Source: Candidatus Enterovibrio escicola (GTDB taxonomy: Bacteria > Pseudomonadota > Gammaproteobacteria > Enterobacterales > Vibrionaceae). Taken from it: DNA of 64,000 nt. Under the pieces are notes generated by a model, which saw only the letters and a program-made list of their open reading frames with translations, was not told the origin of the DNA and ran no database searches. How positions within the stretch are numbered: position 1 is the stretch's first letter; each line of letters begins with the position of its first letter. The stretch is taken from the NCBI RefSeq assembly GCF_002464935.1, contig NZ_NBYY01000031.1:1-64000 (forward strand), given 5' to 3'. Shown in pieces: positions 9,574-28,028 of the stretch. The position numbers and the translations under genes are program-made.

Positions 9574-10875
9574 TTAAGCCTGAACTGAGTTCATTAAATC
9601 AAAGAAACTTTGTTTCTTATTAGAAACTTGTGCTTTAACCAGTAATACATCGATCGCTTGCTCTTCAAGAGCAAGGTTACGCATGTTTTCCATCATACGT
9701 TGATCTTTCTCATAATAAGCAACTACTTCAGATGGATCTTCATAGGCAGAAGCTATTTCAATGATCAGCTCTTTCACACGGGCTTCCTCTGCGTTCAAAT
9801 TTTCAGATTTGATAACTTCACCGAGAAGAAGACCAACAACTACTCGGTATTTTGCTTGCTCTTCGACCAATTCATGTGACAATTCAGGTGTGTTCTTCAT
9901 TTGTTCTCCGAAACGATTAACCACTTGCTCACACAAAATGTTAATTTCTTGATCGATCAGAGTAGAAGGTACATCAATACTGTTGTGCTTTACCAAACCA
10001 TTGATCACTTGTTCTTTAATCAGAATCTTAATAGCTTGCTTCATTTCACGTTCCATATTTCTACGAACTTCAGTTTTAAGTACTTCAACACCACCCTCTT
10101 GAATACCGAAACGTGCAACAAATTCGTCAGTCAATTCTGGCAATTCCTGCATTTCAACTTTGCGCAATTTAACATAGAATTTCGCGGTTTTACCTTTCAA
10201 AGGTTCAGCCGGGTAATTTTCTGGTAAATTTACTTCAATTGTGAATTCATCACCCACTTTCTTACCAACAAGCTCATCCTCGAAATTTGGAATCATGCTG
10301 TTTTTACCCATAATCAGTACAAAGTTTTCTGCTTTACCCCCTTCGAATGTATCGCCATTGATAGAACCTGTGAAGTCGATAGTTACACGGCTATTTTCTT
10401 CCACAACAGAGTCAACATCTACCCATAAGGTTTGCTGTTTACGTAAAGTTTCAATCATATACACAACGTCTTCATCTGTTATCTCAGTGTGTGGTTTAAC
10501 CACTTCAACTTTATCCAAATCTTTCAGATCTATAACTGGATAAATTTCAAAAGAGGCCTTAAAGACGAGGTCTTTACCATATTCAATTTCTATCGGGGTA
10601 AACGTTGGTCTACCGGCTGGTTTGATTTTTTCTTTGATGATAGCTTCCATGAAATGACGTTGCATCAATTCACCCAACACATCGCTATGTACTGCTTTGC
10701 GATACATACGTGAAACCATTTTAAAAGGTACTTTACCTTTACGGAAACCATCGAAACGACGATTCCTAGTAATATTACGTAACTCAGTAGTAACGATGTC
10801 TTCTATATTTGCTGTTAGAACAGTGATAGTCAGCTGGAGTTTCAATTTTTCTATGGTTTCAACCGTAACTTGCAT
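9574..10875 (-). CDS. tig: Trigger factor, ribosome-associated chaperone and PPIase
   Basis: Cytoplasmic chaperone at the ribosomal exit tunnel, 433 aa (E. coli 432). The ribosome-docking signature GFRKGKVP lies in RRFDGFRKGKVPFKMV at about 43-50. The FKBP-type PPIase domain spans about 155-240 (VTIDFTGSINGDTFEGGKAE; MIPNFEDELVGKKVGDEF). The C-terminal arms follow. The start MQVTVETIEKLKLQLTITV matches the family N terminus. First protein gene of the tig-clpP-clpX-lon block, downstream of the intron-bearing tRNA-Arg on the same strand. Intact. Confidence 0.97.
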   Translation of the reverse strand: MQVTVETIEKLKLQLTITVLTANIEDIVTTELRNITRNRRFDGFRKGKVPFKMVSRMYRKAVHSDVLGELMQRHFMEAIIKEKIKPAGRPTFTPIEIEYGKDLVFKASFEIYPVIDLKDLDKVEVVKPHTEITDEDVVYMIETLRKQQTLWVDVDSVVEENSRVTIDFTGSINGDTFEGGKAENFVLIMGKNSMIPNFEDELVGKKVGDEFTIEVNLPENYPAEPLKGKTAKFYVKLRKVEMQELPELTDEFVARFGIQEGGVEVLKTEVRRNMEREMKQAIKILIKEQVINGLVKHNSIDVPSTLIDQEINILCEQVVNRFGEQMKNTPELSHELVEEQAKYRVVVGLLLGEVIKSENLNAEEARVKELIIEIASAYEDPSEVVAYYEKDQRMMENMRNLALEEQAIDVLLVKAQVSNKKQSFFDLMNSVQA

Positions 10876-11259: not shown

Positions 11260-11581
11260 TGGCGCGCCCTGCAGGATTCGAACCTGCGACCACATACTTC
11301 ATCGCACTATAGCTTTCGCTACCACCCTTAGGCTTTGTGCGCTGGACTATCCCTTCACCATAACAATGTTATATATTGTCTTAGGTGGATGCCGTCTAGT
11401 CTCTACACCTTCCTAACTGTAAAATCAGGCTTGGCTCGGGATTACCGACCAACGGTAGGGTTTCCCCGAATTTGACATCTTACACCTTAAAAGTTTCCAA
11501 ATAAGGGCCCAAACTAAAATGTAAATAACATGCTTCTAACTATTAGAAGGTACGTGCTCTATCCAACTGAGCTAAGGGCGC
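11260..11581 (-). tRNA. tRNA-Arg(UCU) interrupted by a group I intron
   Basis: Exon 1 is 11581-11545 and exon 2 is 11299-11260; joined they give a 77-nt tRNA ending in CCA. The acceptor stem GCGCCCT/AGGGCGC with G73, the D arm GCTC-AGTTGGATA-GAGC, the anticodon stem CGTAC/GTATG and the T arm GCAGG-TTCGAAT-CCTGC all pair. The anticodon loop becomes CTTCTAA with anticodon TCT, which reads AGA and AGG. This matches E. coli argU closely. The 245-nt insert lies directly 3' of anticodon base 36. A strong promoter lies upstream and tig is next downstream. Unless the insert splices out the tRNA cannot work, and I see no other arginine UCU tRNA in the window. Confidence 0.93.
11300..11544 (-). ncRNA. 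Group I (IC3-like) self-splicing intron in tRNA-Arg(UCU)
   Basis: The 245-nt insert has a complete group I core on the minus strand. P2: CCUUA/UAAGG. P3: AUGUC with GGCAU. P4: UUCGGG with CCCGAG. P5: UACCG/CGGUA. The segment AAUCCCGAGCCAAGCC is the conserved P4-J-P6 region seen in cyanobacterial tRNA-Leu introns. P7: GACUA in GAGACUAGACGGC with UAGUC in GGGAUAGUCC. P8: CCACC/GGUG around ACAAU/AUUGU. P9 region: CGCAC/GUGCG enclosing a UAGC-GAAA-GCUA hairpin. The intron ends with G (omega-G) before exon AAGUAUG. There is no ORF inside. P1 pairs exon CUUCU with intron AGAAG; the splice-site pair would be U-A rather than the usual U-G. Confidence 0.92.
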
Positions 11582-11614: not shown

Positions 11615-11642
11615 ATTATAAGGCGAAGAAATACGCCGTCAA
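11615..11642 (-). promoter_or_regulatory. Sigma-70 promoter of tRNA-Arg
   Basis: TTGACG, 16 nt, TATAAT on the minus strand, near consensus at both boxes. It lies about 35 nt upstream of the tRNA 5' end, a normal leader length for a stand-alone tRNA gene. Confidence 0.8.
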
Positions 11643-11913: not shown

Positions 11914-12893
11914 CCACCTGAGCTGTGCATAAGAAATAAACTAAATCCCCAATTCTAGATCTGAATCGTTTGAACAAAACTATTGATTGCATAAAAACTT
12001 GGATATTGAATAACTTAGACGCTATTTTCGTCGATGTTGACGATTTCTACCAGATTTTCCTCCTTCCATGGAAAAATACCTAATTTCTTCAGGTGTCAAA
12101 CAAAGAAACAAGATTTCTCGCCTCTCAGTTAGCGAAATCATGACGATAGTGATAGCTTTCCATCAATTTGGGTATCGCGACTTCAAAACCTATTACATCC
12201 ACTTTGTTTACCGCTACCTCACCAACGAATTTCCTGAATTAGTCAGCTACATGCGAATACTTAAGCTCATGCAAGGTATTCTAGTTTCGCTTTATTCTTA
12301 CCTCATTCACCGTAAGGCAAAGCTGACAGGGATTGCTTTCGTTGATTCCTCCAAGTTACAGGTTTATCACAACCTCCACATTCTCAGACATCAAGTTTTC
12401 AAAGGTATCGCTAAGCGAGGAAAAGGAATTATGAGGTGGTTCTACGGCTTCAAATTACACCTCATTATTAATGACCAAAGTGGCATTATTTCAGTCAAAG
12501 TAACGACGGCTAACGTGAATGATAGAAAGCCTGTGTCAGAAATGGCTGACGAGCTGTGGGGGATGTTTATACGGAGATAGAGGTTATATCTCTGATCCAT
12601 TGGAGCGGAAACTTGCAGACACGGGAGTGACACTAATAACGGGTGAAAAAGAATATGCAATCCACAGTGATGAAACTATTGGACCGCCTGATACTCCGGA
12701 AACGATTTACTATTAAAACCATTTTTAATCAACTAAAAGACATATCCCAAAGCGAACATTTTTGGCACCGTAATTGTACCAGTTTTATGGTCAACTTGCT
12801 GGCGGGGCTCATCGCGTATTCATTCCAACCAAAAAAGCCGAGTATCAAGAGGACTTGGCTTGATAAGCAAGCACTTATGCAGATCTGAGGTTA
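11914..12893 (+). mobile_element. IS982-family element, copy A, broken transposase
   Basis: About 980 bp bounded by ends of the form ACCTGAGCTG...GCATAAG and CTTATGCAGATCTGAGGTTA, imperfect inverted repeats shared by all IS982 copies here. The transposase reads NLDAIFVDVDDFYQ, SGVKQRNKISRLSVSEIMTI, GIAFVDSSKLQVYHNLHILR and RWFYGFKLHLIINDQSG, the IS982 signature. The start is TTG in place of ATG, and frames shift near 12070, 12565 and 12640, so no full protein is made. It sits inside the terminal repeat of the neighbouring IS5-type element. Confidence 0.85.
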
Positions 12894-13850
12894 AAGCAGG
12901 CTTATAACGTACTGATCTCAATATTTTTTACAGTTTTAACTTATCTGCTGGCGAACAGGTATACTGAGTCTTAGAACTTTGTTCATCGCTTTCATATTTG
13001 CCAGCGCTTCACTAACTTGAGCATTCTAATTACGAAGACTAAGTTTAGGGCTGAACAACTGTTGATAGCGAAACATTGCTGTTTCTGCTAATGAGCGTTT
13101 GTGATAACCCCTGTTCTTTCCCCATCCGCCAGTTTATCCTTTTTTAACGCCTTTACAGTTTCATTTTTAGGATGCCCTTTCTCCCAGTACTCTGCGTTGC
13201 TTCGAGGTGGAATAATGGGCGTTATTCTTTTGTTTTTCAGCACATGGTGACATATTTTTGTGTCATAGAGTCGGTTAACATTGAATTGCTATATCTTTCA
13301 TCGTAATGGATTACGCAATGTAGGTAAAACCTCATTGTCACCCACAAAAATTAGGCTAACTTCTGCAGCAATTTTCTCATGAGTATAGACATCAACCGCG
13401 AGATGAAGTTTGCGCAAAATACGTCGCTTTTCCTTACCATGTTTACGTGTTCTCCGTTCGCCTTTGCCGTATATATTTAGGCTTGTGGCATCAATAACGA
13501 CATAGACGACAGCTCCTCGACTCGGTAAATGATACTTAACTTCTACGGTCTTCGAACTCACGAAGTGGCAGTTTTGATATACCTTTCACCATCAGTACCA
13601 TTTCAATTTCGGCATCGAAAAATATAAACCCACGGCCACGATAACCATAACGCTTTGGACAATACCATGCCCTAGTCGTAATATCGTCTATCCAAAGAAT
13701 TGCTGAACCACAATTTACTAATGCTTGATTATATTATTTCCAGCTGCTGATCTTTTACTTAGTCTTTCCCATCATCACCTCCCGCTTAATTCCATGATGA
13801 TCTGATCGTAGAAATTACGATTAGTTCAGATATTTTGGAAAACAACGACG
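12894..13850 (-). mobile_element. IS5-family (IS903-like) element, broken
   Basis: Its 5' end, TTGTTTTCCAAAATATCTG, lies near 13850 and its 3' end runs to 12894, where IS982 copy A interrupts the terminal repeat (the outer piece GGTTGTTGCTTAAAT is at 11898-11913). The transposase remnant 13561-13298 reads YHLPSRGAVVYVVIDATSLN and RKLHLAVDVYTHEKIAAEVS, a DDE core of the IS903 group. Upstream residues and the C-terminal third are in other frames. The element is inactive. Confidence 0.8.
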
Positions 13851-14029: not shown

Positions 14030-14884
14030 ATGGTCGCTCAACTCATTGATGGGAAAATAATTTCTCAAACTGTTCGCCAAGAAGTCACAGCTCGTGTAGA
14101 AATAAGAAGGGCCGCTGGCTTAAGAGTACCTGGGCTAGCTGTTGTTATGGTTGGAGACGATGCAGCTTCACAAGTATATGTGGATAGCAAACGCCGTGTG
14201 TGCAAAGAAGTTGGATTTATTTCAAAATCCTACGATCTACCTGCTGCTACACGTGAAGAAGAATTAATCGCATTAATTGACAAGTTGAACTCAGACATAG
14301 AGATCGACGGGGTTTTAGTACAGTTACCACTCCCTGCACAAATTAATCCGACCTCCGTGTTTGAACACATCGACCCCGAAAAAGACGTAGATGGTTTCCA
14401 TCCCTACAATGTAGGCCGTTTGTGTCAACGGATACCAAGACTTCGTTCATGTACTCCGAAAGGTATCATTACCTTACTAGAGCGCTACAACATCCCAATT
14501 ATCGGTATGCATGCAGTAATGGTTGGTGCATCCAATATCGTGGGTCGCCCAATGACTATGGAATTACTGCTAGCAGGCTGCACAACAACAACATGTCATC
14601 GCTTTACTACAGATCTGGAGAACCATGTCCGCCAAGCAAGTTTATTGATTGTTGCTATTGGTAAACCTAACTTTATTCAAGGTGATTGGATCAAACCTGG
14701 GGCAATTGTCATTGATGTAGGTATCAACCGCCTAGAAAATGGTAAATTAGTAGGTGACGTTGAGCATGATATAGCGATAAAGAAAGCCAGTCACATTACT
14801 CCAGTTCCAGGTGGGGTTGGTCCCATGACAGTTGCAACACTAATTGAAAATACGCTACTGGCTTGCGAGCAATTTCACTCGTAA
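14030..14884 (+). CDS. folD: Bifunctional methylene-THF dehydrogenase/cyclohydrolase FolD
   Basis: Converts 5,10-methylene-THF to 10-formyl-THF in the one-carbon pathway; 284 aa (E. coli 288). The catalytic lysine motif is [14 protein letters not shown] near residues 50-63, with [12 protein letters not shown] near 95, DVDGFHP near 122, an NADP-binding stretch [13 protein letters not shown] near 163, and the C-terminal signature [16 protein letters not shown] near 262. It supplies 10-formyl-THF for PurN, also in the window, and works beside GlyA. Both sides are IS debris, so it stands alone as a transcription unit. Intact. Confidence 0.97.
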
Positions 14885-15115: not shown

Positions 15116-16093
15116 AACCTGAGCTGCGCTCAAGAAATGAACTAAATGCTAAAGTCGCGATCTAATCGTTTGAAAAAACCATTAATTGCATAAGGACTTG
15201 GATATGAATAACTTAGACGCTGTTTTCGTCGATATCGACGACTCCTACCAGACTTTCCTCCCTGCATGGAAAAAACACCTCATTTTTTCCGGTATGAAAC
15301 AAAGAAACAAGCCTTCTCACCTCTCCGTTAGCAAAGTGATGACGATAGTGATAGCTTTCTATCAATTGGGGTATTGAGATTTCAAAACCTATTACATCAA
15401 ATTTGTTTGCCTCTGTCTCACCAACGAATTTCCTGAATTAGTCAGCTACACGCGAATGCTCAAGCTCATGCAAGGTATTTTAATTCCGCTTTGTTCTTAC
15501 CTCACTTACCGTTAGGTAAGACCGACATGGATTGCTTTCGTTCATTTATCAAAGCTACAGGTTTGTCACAACATACGTATTCTCAGACTTCAGGTTTTTA
15601 AAGGTACCGTGATGCGAGGAAAAGGAACGATGGGGTGGTTCTACGGCTTCAAATTACACCTTATTATCAATGCCCAAGGTGGCATTATCTCAGTCAAAGT
15701 GACAACGGCTAACGTGGATGATAGAAAGCCTGTATCGGAAATGGTTGACGAGTTTTGGGGCTTTTATATTAGAGATTAAAGGTTATATCTATGGTCCATT
15801 GGAGCGGGAAATTGCAGACAAGGGAGTGACACTGATAACGGGTGTAAAAAAACATGAAATCCAAAGTGATAAAACTTTAAAACTGCCTGATAATCCGGAA
15901 ACAATTTATTATTAAAACCATTCTTGACCAACTAAAAAACATATCCCAAATCAAGCATTCTCAGCACCGTAGTTATATCAGCTTTATGGTCAACTTGCTG
16001 GCGGGGCTTATCGCGTATTCATTTCAACCAAAGAAGATAAACATCAAGATAACTAGGTTTAATAAGCAAGCGCTTATGCAGATCTGAGATTAA
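15116..16093 (+). mobile_element. IS982-family element, copy B, broken transposase
   Basis: Full-length (about 975 bp) with both ends recognisable. The transposase starts at ATG 15204 (MNNLDAVFVDIDDSYQTFLP) but reaches a stop after AFYQLGY (15375) and has further stops and frameshifts (ACCGTTAGG near 15510; GGGCTTTTATATTAGAGATTAA near 15765). The C-terminal piece is ANLLAG-like near 15985. It truncates the IS91-like remnant to its right. Confidence 0.85.
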
Positions 16094-16876
16094 TTAGCCC
16101 ATAAGGTTCTTATCACATATTGACGCGCCGGAAACTCAAGCTCCATTAACTTCAGTAAGTATTTTTGCCAAAATAATCATAACTGAGATAACGATAAATA
16201 CTAAAACCCTTTCCAATCTTGGTTTGAAGGAAAGAATGCACCTTTAACCAGTATCACATGTAAATGCGGATTGTAGTTGTCATCACGGCTATGGGTATGG
16301 ATGAAAACAATGACGTCAATTTCACGAACATCAGTCTTAAAGTGCGCCTGAATCAACTCTGATAAACAAGCTTCCACCAAAACCATAAATCCAGAATACA
16401 AACGCTTCTGATTGGAGTGATTATGGAAAGGAACACGAAGGTGTCTAGGCAATGTTCAGACAACTTGCCGATAGCTCACTCCAAGAAACAGGCGTACGCC
16501 TATTGTAACCATACTCTCCCGTGCATAACGCTTTCCACATTGTGGACAAGCTTTCCCCTTACAACTAAAATTAACCTTATATTTCCCCTTAACCACAACC
16601 CAATTATTGATAAGTGGCAAAGCCATTTTCTGCGCTTCCACACTTCATCATTTTAGTGATTTCTGAATAATAATCAGTGTGATAGCTGGGATAACTGGAT
16701 ACGAATATGGTCTAATTCGTAGTGAAAATACGTTTAAATCAAAACAGCTTCGATTTGATACCTTTGAAATTTATTCATGCCTTTTATTTGTTCAATCGTA
16801 CTAAGTGTATTACAGATAGGGACATGCCTTAATCCCCACCATATATAGTTTTTAGGAGGAAATTCTTACGGTGAAA
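16094..16876 (-). mobile_element. IS91-like element, 5' part, truncated
   Basis: On the minus strand 16641-16456 encodes a zinc-binding N domain (FSCKGKACPQCGKRYARESM) and 16452-16201 continues as RVPFHNHSNQKRLYSGFMVL and HTHSRDDNYNPHLHVILVKG, with the HxH metal motif of Y2 rolling-circle transposases. A stop/frameshift separates the two. IS982 copy B cuts it off before the tyrosine segment. The upstream flank to 16876 ends in the 56-bp hairpin repeat described separately. A second copy of the same arrangement is at 26428-27491. Confidence 0.75.
16819..16876 (-). repeat. 56-bp hairpin repeat, copy 1
   Basis: Begins GGACATGCC and ends near GTGAAA. In the other copies CTAGGA and TCCTAG form a 6-bp hairpin close to the end; here the arms have drifted (TTAGGA, TTCTTAC). 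It joins the middle of an IS256 transposase at a site equivalent to GAAC (here TAAC). Upstream it is continuous with the IS91-like remnant. Confidence 0.6.
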
Positions 16877-27914: not shown

Positions 27915-28028
27915 GGGTGGAGGTCTCCCCAGCTACATCCCTACACACACAGAACTCACGCGAGCTGCTTCCTTCCAGATCTGACTCCGTTCATAAGTTA
28001 GCATTGCAGGAGAACCAAGGAAACCTCC
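27915..28028 (-). ncRNA. ffs: 4.5S RNA of the signal recognition particle
   Basis: The minus strand reads GGAGGTTTCCTTGGTTCTCC, then the domain IV core GTCAGATCTGGAAGGAAGCA, then GTAGGGATGTAGCTGG and the closing strand ending GACCTCCACCC. The 5' GGAGGTTTCC and 3' GGGGAGACCTCC pair across the base of the hairpin. It matches E. coli ffs in length (114 nt) and in the GGAAGGAAGCAG loop bound by Ffh. It lies just upstream of the xthA stop on the same strand. Confidence 0.93.

Follow-up and report, generated by a model that had tools for sequence, protein, structure and literature searches.

The window, a 64,000-nucleotide stretch of a Candidatus Enterovibrio escicola contig (NZ_NBYY01000031.1), carries a tRNA-Arg(UCU) gene that is split in its anticodon loop by a group I intron. 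The features of the locus are as follows:

9574..10875, minus strand: next gene downstream of the tRNA, which we take from knowledge of its sequence to be tig
11260-11581, minus strand: tRNA-Arg(UCU) gene, intron included, 322 nt
11260..11299, minus strand: 3' exon of tRNA-Arg(UCU), 40 nt, first base A37, CCA encoded
11300..11544, minus strand: group I intron, 245 nt, with terminal G, recognized by RF00028, fold and covariation
11310..11321, minus strand: hairpin of the P9 region with a GAAA loop
11342..11352, minus strand: P7 3' strand UAGUC and its neighbours
11388..11401, minus strand: P7 5' strand GACUA and P3 3' strand GGCAUC
11474..11479, minus strand: P3 5' strand GAUGUC
11506..11513, minus strand: contains the internal guide UUGGG, which pairs with exon UCU and intron AA to give U36.G of P1; invariant and paired in 10 of 10 aligned rows
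11545..11581, minus strand: 5' exon of tRNA-Arg(UCU), 37 nt, last base U36; ARAGORN reads the joined exons as tRNA-Arg(tct)
11615..11642, minus strand: predicted promoter-like TTGACGG..TATAAT, from its position and a by-eye comparison
14030..14884, plus strand: upstream neighbour of the tRNA, presumably folD, again named from knowledge of its sequence

Spliced, the exons yield 77 nt including CCA, which ARAGORN reads as tRNA-Arg(tct) with anticodon UCU. An Infernal search (cmscan) matched RF00028 at 11333-11528 on the minus strand, over model positions 1-253, with 61.9 bits (E 2.7e-13) against a gathering score of 50 bits. These results bear out a sequence-only reading of the same DNA, which had placed a group I intron between bases 36 and 37 of tRNA-Arg(UCU) in a Vibrionaceae genome; the 245-nt insert, the 77-nt tRNA, P3, P4, P7, the GNRA hairpin (here GAAA) and the terminal G that it described are all present, and the genome is indeed from this family. 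The longest stop-free stretch within the intron in six frames is 47 codons, which is too small to encode a homing endonuclease. Run by default, with no intron option, ARAGORN called zero tRNA genes in the window, and with the intron option it returned tRNA-Arg(tct) and its intron at the same locus.

By eye, the TATAAT box and the leader before the split gene look like those that precede uninterrupted tRNA-Arg genes in the genus. All 13 loci compared have a folD match upstream of the tRNA, and tig is found within about 400 nt downstream of the window tRNA. Short transposase-like fragments were seen by eye between folD and the tRNA and beyond (12068-13561 and 15186-16656), and a bacterial small SRP RNA is present at 27924-28020 on the minus strand.

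The fold was assessed in an alignment of ten introns that share this insertion site (eight from Vibrionaceae, including that of the window, one from Shewanella and one from Psychromonas), using a named structure from P1 to P9 with the P3/P7 pseudoknot. In the window, the core helices are P3 (GAUGUC/GGCAUC), P4 (UUCGGG/CCCGAG) and P7 (GACUA/UAGUC), and P1 is UCUAA/UUGGG, in which the U36.G pair that marks the 5' splice site is retained in all ten introns. A terminal G was found in 16 of the 16 introns listed, which represent both of the insertion sites described below. Of 566 cells, 97.7% were paired, a figure favoured by drawing the structure on the window row, whose pairs hold by construction; slid controls dropped to 30-41%. 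Covariation was counted on the rows of this insertion site (class A), and a combined alignment with class B, which misplaces P3, was left out of the counts. Double changes were present at 16 of 59 named pairs, compared to a shuffle mean of 4.8, and none of 500 shuffles gave a number as high; P3, P7 and P8 have one such pair each, and P2 and P6a also contribute. At one P3 pair, seven rows carry C-G and three carry U-A; at one P7 pair, nine carry C-G and one carries G.U. P4 and P6 were invariant across the ten rows, P5 as drawn was the weakest core helix (75% of its cells paired), and further pair types showed no excess over shuffles (185/500). The folding energy of the bare intron, with the pseudoknot unscored, was ordinary (z -0.73; 44 of 200 shuffles fold as well) and was dropped as an uninformative test of structure. 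A 7-bp hairpin spanning the splice site (11533-11549) could compete with P1; by eye, it occurs in none of the other nine class A introns, of which the Psychromonas version could form 4 bp. Altogether, the group I identity of the insert is confirmed. The core pattern of the window intron recurs in introns of tRNA-Leu and of other tRNAs, so the likeness to tRNA-Leu(UAA) introns remarked upon earlier holds as a pattern common to many of them. IC3 is a candidate label for its subgroup.

Group I introns splice in two steps: guanosine attacks at the U.G pair, and the freed 5' exon in turn attacks the position just behind the final G. The intron of the tRNA-Arg(UCU) precursor would be expected to remove itself in these two guanosine-started steps, with the 5' cut set by U36.G in P1 and the 3' cut by the terminal G.

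The assembly consists of 39 contigs (2.65 Mb) and is rated 99.73% complete. A scan with a tRNA model gave 39 hits, all of them uninterrupted genes and none with anticodon UCU, and ARAGORN, run on the hit stretches together with the two intron loci, found 41 genes, the split gene being the only one with UCU. The genome also has arginine tRNA genes with anticodons CCU, CCG and ACG. A genome-wide search with a D-arm pattern revealed no second exact copy and four places at two mismatches; thus, the second intact tRNA-Arg(UCU) gene that could have made the split copy dispensable was not found in the assembly. AGA is used 15 times in five neighbouring core genes. For AGG, tRNA-Arg(CCU) provides a second reader. 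Because the only UCU gene found is split, AGA decoding should require splicing of the intron, and the joined tRNA would be the only AGA reader of the cell; given the tRNA-Arg(CCU) gene, only AGA, and not AGG, should depend on it. The earlier suggestion that reading of both codons hinges on splicing is therefore probable for AGA and does not extend to AGG.

A second group I intron in this genome splits the only tRNA-Leu(CAA) gene found there (L001 1508-1882; G000:C22:150985-151305). Placed by hand, that intron seemingly follows position 32, which would be unusual. In the genus, a pattern aimed at tRNA-Leu(CAA) matched mainly tRNA-Leu(UAA)-like genes.

Among 329 Vibrionaceae genomes, the intron model matched in 19, above the cut-off in 17, at 24 places: 13 tRNA-Arg(UCU) genes, one tRNA-Leu(CAA) gene, four CAU genes, which on our own reading are tRNA-Ile2, and six places without an ARAGORN tRNA. 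One of the 13 (L004) is labelled Ser by ARAGORN and is Arg once spliced. The introns of the tRNA-Arg genes occupy two insertion sites, after U36 (class A, eight loci) and after U34 (class B, five loci). The class A core pattern was found on 58 named genome contigs and 13 viral contigs, and 63 of these 71 contig loci have an intron tRNA. Outside the Vibrionaceae, split genes labelled tRNA-Arg(UCU) by ARAGORN occur in Shewanella, Psychromonas, Haematobacter and Gemmobacter, although such labels are unreliable for intron genes, as seen for L004 and for near-identical Haematobacter introns labelled Arg or Ser. In an all-splice trial, L087, L124, L131 and L132 could give tRNA-Leu(taa), and L064, L065 and L105 could give a CAU tRNA, each among other readings. 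The split gene of the window is therefore not unique.

In a tree of 71 introns, for which the bootstrap was unsettled and row L096 was left out for length, the ten class A introns formed one branch (97/91). Related cores occur in phage and viral records, as do some tRNAs with introns, but a phage origin of the class A introns was set aside, as their branch is without any viral row. Five viral contigs of 20-281 kb (L145, L147, L148, L150 and L151) contain group I introns in tRNA-Leu(UAA) or tRNA-Arg(UCU), by ARAGORN label; a 2014 review, in the part available to us, described phage introns as known in protein genes only (PMC3984707). Two further matches were noted. In 1263 plasmid records, many of them from Enterobacteriaceae, part of the core of the E. 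norvegicus intron gene is matched, at about 77% in the rows inspected. In V. hepatarius, three group I intron matches without an ARAGORN tRNA lie within about 1 kb (G196:C19:151389-152422; L047-L049, L062), possibly an IStron-like element.

The surroundings of the intron genes in relatives proved to be distinctive. At eight of the 13 Vibrionaceae loci, the 5' part of a broken native tRNA-Arg(UCU) gene is located 87-228 nt upstream of the intron gene, behind the apparent native promoter; the other five, including that of the window, contain no remnant of a native gene. The break follows GGTTC, in the T arm, at four class A loci and GAGCAC, behind the D arm, at four class B loci. Six of the eight loci were traced downstream for up to 70 kb, the contigs of G017 and G330 ending nearby, and the native 3' part was recovered in all six, at distances of 15 kb (G255, V. 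renipiscarius), 18 kb (G328), 20 kb (G013, E. norvegicus FF-33), 24 kb (G246), 31 kb (G207) and 33 kb (G028) from the 5' part. When rejoined, the flanks gave an intronless tRNA-Arg(UCU) in 6 of 6 loci; for G013, where the right junction reads GGATC and the left GGTTC, the left letters were used. Mirror sequences at the island-side junctions are clear in G246, G207 and G328 and weaker in G255, G028 and G013. In G013, tig follows the right end of the island, which thus occupies the same locus as the window gene.

We searched the 329 genomes for the junctions themselves. The class B junction was found in four genomes, all at known loci and all with an intron tRNA. The class A junction pattern occurred at nine places in eight genomes, of which five are tRNA-Arg junctions; the other four (L184-L187) were unrelated when read. 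The five comprise four known intron-tRNA islands and one in G233 (L181), whose replacement tRNA-Arg(UCU) is complete, lacks an intron and has a different T arm. Across these nine tRNA-Arg islands the replacement tRNA is constant and the intron is present in eight, so the intron appears dispensable to them. Since at eight of the 13 loci the intron gene accompanies a broken native gene and does not itself interrupt it, and since its acceptor stem in class B differs from that of the native gene, a whole tRNA must have come in from outside. These loci look like integrative islands with recombinase trios that carry a replacement tRNA. As a separate observation, G017, which has a class B junction, contains a second whole, intronless tRNA-Arg(UCU) beside another tRNA (L173; G017:C87), perhaps in a prophage cluster.

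Behind the intron tRNA, class A islands have genes of about 480, 1115 and 220 aa, in that order. The first gene matches PF00589 in G246 and G013, and the second showed zero Pfam family matches in these two islands. At E <= 1e-40, the G246 recombinase was found in 3 of the 329 genomes (G246 itself, G207 and G255), and in all three an intron tRNA-Arg gene stands directly before it. Class B islands have a three-gene block at their end. In G328, the first gene of this trio matches PF00589, and the trio scored 293.3 bits for GmtY (cut-off 340), 458.5 for GmtZ (cut-off 600) and 44.8 for GmtX (cut-off 40), so that only GmtX exceeds its NCBIfam cut-off; G028 has a three-gene block of similar gene sizes. 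The first genes of the class A islands in G246 and G013 reached 29.7 and 42.8 bits for GmtY, far below its cut-off of 340, and their second genes gave no match, so a trio of GmtY, GmtZ and GmtX was not recognized in these two islands. Nine cargo proteins were compared with PADLOC, which identified type I restriction subunits in G028, HamA and HamB (Hachiman) in G328, a RecD-like helicase in G246 and a weaker LmuA match in G013, where one protein was without a match. No recombinase trio is present between the tRNA and tig in the window.

The same layout was found beyond this tRNA and beyond the family. At two CAU-tRNA loci of genus g12, which we took as Vibrio, a broken copy precedes the intron gene, and behind one of them lies a trio-like block whose first gene is a distant tyrosine recombinase. 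Among the 63 intron tRNA loci found with the class A core pattern, an upstream copy of at least 20 nt was seen at 11, counting 5' parts only; eight remain after removal of L149, which is a viral cluster containing further whole tRNA genes, and of L094 and L104, which repeat G013 and G255. These eight, all outside the Vibrionaceae, are as follows:

Shewanella SG41-4: class A, broken copy upstream, recombinase of the class A type
Shewanella SR44-3: class B, broken copy upstream
Pseudomonas matsuisoli: CAU gene, broken copy upstream
Gammaproteobacterial, Bacteroidetes, Rhodospirillales and Phycisphaerae assemblies: broken copy upstream, probably tRNA-Leu
Psychromonas: the broken upstream copy is of another tRNA

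As a control, we examined the best 29 loci, apart from loci of this study, in a 369-genome sample of the class, most of them labelled other than Arg. An intron tRNA was present at 25 of the 29, and none of the 25 had an upstream copy of at least 18 nt. Thus, most tRNA introns are not visibly island-borne, and the notion that every one of them is was ruled out.

The tRNA body of the window gene was compared to that of native genes. The window genome and E. norvegicus FF-33 belong to the same genus, many members of which have genomes of 5-5.7 Mb, compared to 2.65 Mb for the window. The native set for the genus comprised 13 genes, 12 intact ones read by eye from intronless genomes plus the rejoined flanks of G013. 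Three of 18 genus genomes (G002, G004 and G014) had no tRNA-Arg(UCU) match at one mismatch, and their gene may be diverged, lost or missing from the assembly. The window body differs from the 13 native Enterovibrio genes at 10-13 of 77 positions and from four rejoined native Vibrio genes at 4-9. Against the nine other class A intron genes, it shows 5-6 differences from six and 14-20 from three, and against five class B intron genes 5-11. Its closest match is a native Vibrio gene (4 differences), and the Shewanella SG41-4 body is at 15. The closest intron, in contrast, is that of Shewanella SG41-4 (84% over 215 nt), beside which the window intron falls in the tree (97/92); the E. norvegicus intron is placed among Vibrio ones. 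As intron and tRNA body have different nearest kin, more than one exchange is likely.

The window locus itself has neither an island nor a broken copy, and its tRNA lies between the promoter-like stretch and tig; an island origin of the gene is therefore argued from relatives and from its tRNA body. With a Vibrio-like body at a native Enterovibrio locus, the window copy has the appearance of a relic. Most simply, the lineage would once have had an island, or would have received an allele carried by one, and recombination between the tRNA ends would have followed.

Taken as a whole, the best explanation, which we consider probable, is that the window holds an island-derived, self-splicing gene for the only AGA-reading tRNA of the cell. 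It draws on the intron and its fold, the single UCU copy found, the island anatomy and rejoinable flanks of the relatives, and the Vibrio-nearer body, all read from sequence, from which we infer splicing, integration, excision and the route of the gene into this lineage. The tRNA body would be foreign and derived from a mobile island. Such islands would sit inside the native tRNA-Arg(UCU), broken at GGTTC in class A or at GAGCAC in class B, and would bring a whole tRNA-Arg(UCU) gene as a replacement, in most cases intron-bearing, that keeps the host alive once the native gene is cut; integration and excision would be carried out by their own recombinases. In the window lineage, the island would be gone, and homologous recombination between the tRNA ends that both copies share would probably have left the replacement at the native locus.

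A less probable course, which nevertheless deserves serious weight, is that DNA with an intron-bearing tRNA-Arg recombined at this locus through the tRNA ends and that no island was ever integrated there. An incoming intron allele would leave an identical sequence, and the foreign tRNA body is flanked by a native-like promoter region and the native downstream neighbour, as expected from such an exchange; however, an island-borne or similar donor would still be needed, and a relative in the genus, G013, has such an island at this very locus. Ordinary gain of an intron by the native tRNA-Arg(UCU), through homing or reverse splicing, would make the islands of relatives a coincidence, tRNA genes being common targets. 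The five of 13 loci without an island remnant, the window among them, and the lack of broken upstream copies at the 25 control loci agree with it, and co-conversion of exons in homing could import foreign exon letters. We consider it unlikely, as the intron has no endonuclease frame, the intron gene at 8 of 13 loci is a second gene beside a broken native one, the class B acceptor stem points to import of a whole tRNA, and the window body is unlike the 13 native genes of the genus. Loss of splicing, which would make the tRNA a dying pseudogene of a reduced genome (2.65 Mb), is very improbable, for although the splice-site hairpin could compete with P1 and the folding energy is not above shuffles, P3, P4, P6, P7, U36.G and the final G are intact and the 15 AGA codons in five core genes face the only UCU gene found.

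Beyond the window, an island-derived origin suggests a broader model: that small endonuclease-free tRNA introns travel between bacteria in replacement tRNA genes on trio islands that break the matching tRNA of the host, that the host, left with the island's self-splicing tRNA for an essential codon, is a hostage and so keeps the island in place, and that relics of the window type remain after island loss. We advance it tentatively, its chances being somewhat below even. A further idea, in which the intron conceals the replacement gene from the recombinase of the island that carries it, is weakly supported: the class A break lies some 15 nt from the intron site, and the G233 replacement is intronless, though with a changed T arm.

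Several known systems resemble parts of this picture. Gamma-Mobile-Trio islands were reportedly described by Mahata et al. in 2024. The class B block of G328 is like them in its GmtY-, GmtZ- and GmtX-like genes and defence-like genes, but its GmtY and GmtZ fall below the NCBIfam cut-offs, and the class A recombinases are more distant still. The small introns of tRNA-Leu(UAA), tRNA-Ile2(CAU), tRNA-fMet and tRNA-Arg(CCU) are of like size and interrupt the anticodon loop, and some of them have the same core pattern; the present introns differ from them in the tRNA, in their insertion after 36 (class A) or 34 (class B) and, for class A, in forming a branch of their own. Gamma-Mobile-Trio islands are also cited in a paper of which we consulted part (PMC12715929). 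Tycheposons, in the portion of their description that we saw, likewise have a tyrosine recombinase and begin with a tRNA gene, but neither an intron nor a broken native copy is mentioned there (PMC10872708). Interrupted tRNA-Arg-TCT genes with putative group I introns have already been reported in Beggiatoa BOGUAY and Ca. Thiomargarita nelsonii Bud S10 (PMC4853749), so the window does not hold the first in a gammaproteobacterium, contrary to what had been suggested. By their description, those genes involve the same tRNA and gammaproteobacterial hosts; the sections available to us do not mention the insertion site or an island and call the intron structure undetermined (PMC4853749).

Among open-licence papers, surveyed by title and abstract with subscription papers outside the scope, we found none that ties tRNA group I introns to integrative islands. 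To our knowledge, how small endonuclease-free tRNA group I introns spread between distant bacteria is unsettled. The new part of our results is the vehicle, islands with a replacement tRNA, and not an intron in tRNA-Arg(UCU) itself. The initial picture of an isolated insertion is right about the intron in the tRNA, but in relatives the intron arrives with a whole replacement tRNA on islands.

For annotation, the consequence is that ARAGORN with default settings misses the window tRNA, and tRNAscan-SE 2.0, according to the part of its description that we saw, is not designed for such introns (PMC8450103). The islands offer a candidate vehicle for tRNA introns: an intron-bearing spare beside a broken native gene was seen with tRNA-Arg(UCU) in both Vibrionaceae and Shewanella, and with CAU genes in both Vibrionaceae and Pseudomonas. 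The proposal can be tested through what it predicts for island stability, decoding of AGA and annotation. If it holds, even a single essential tRNA gene could serve as an island site without being regenerated: the island would break the gene and bring a spare.
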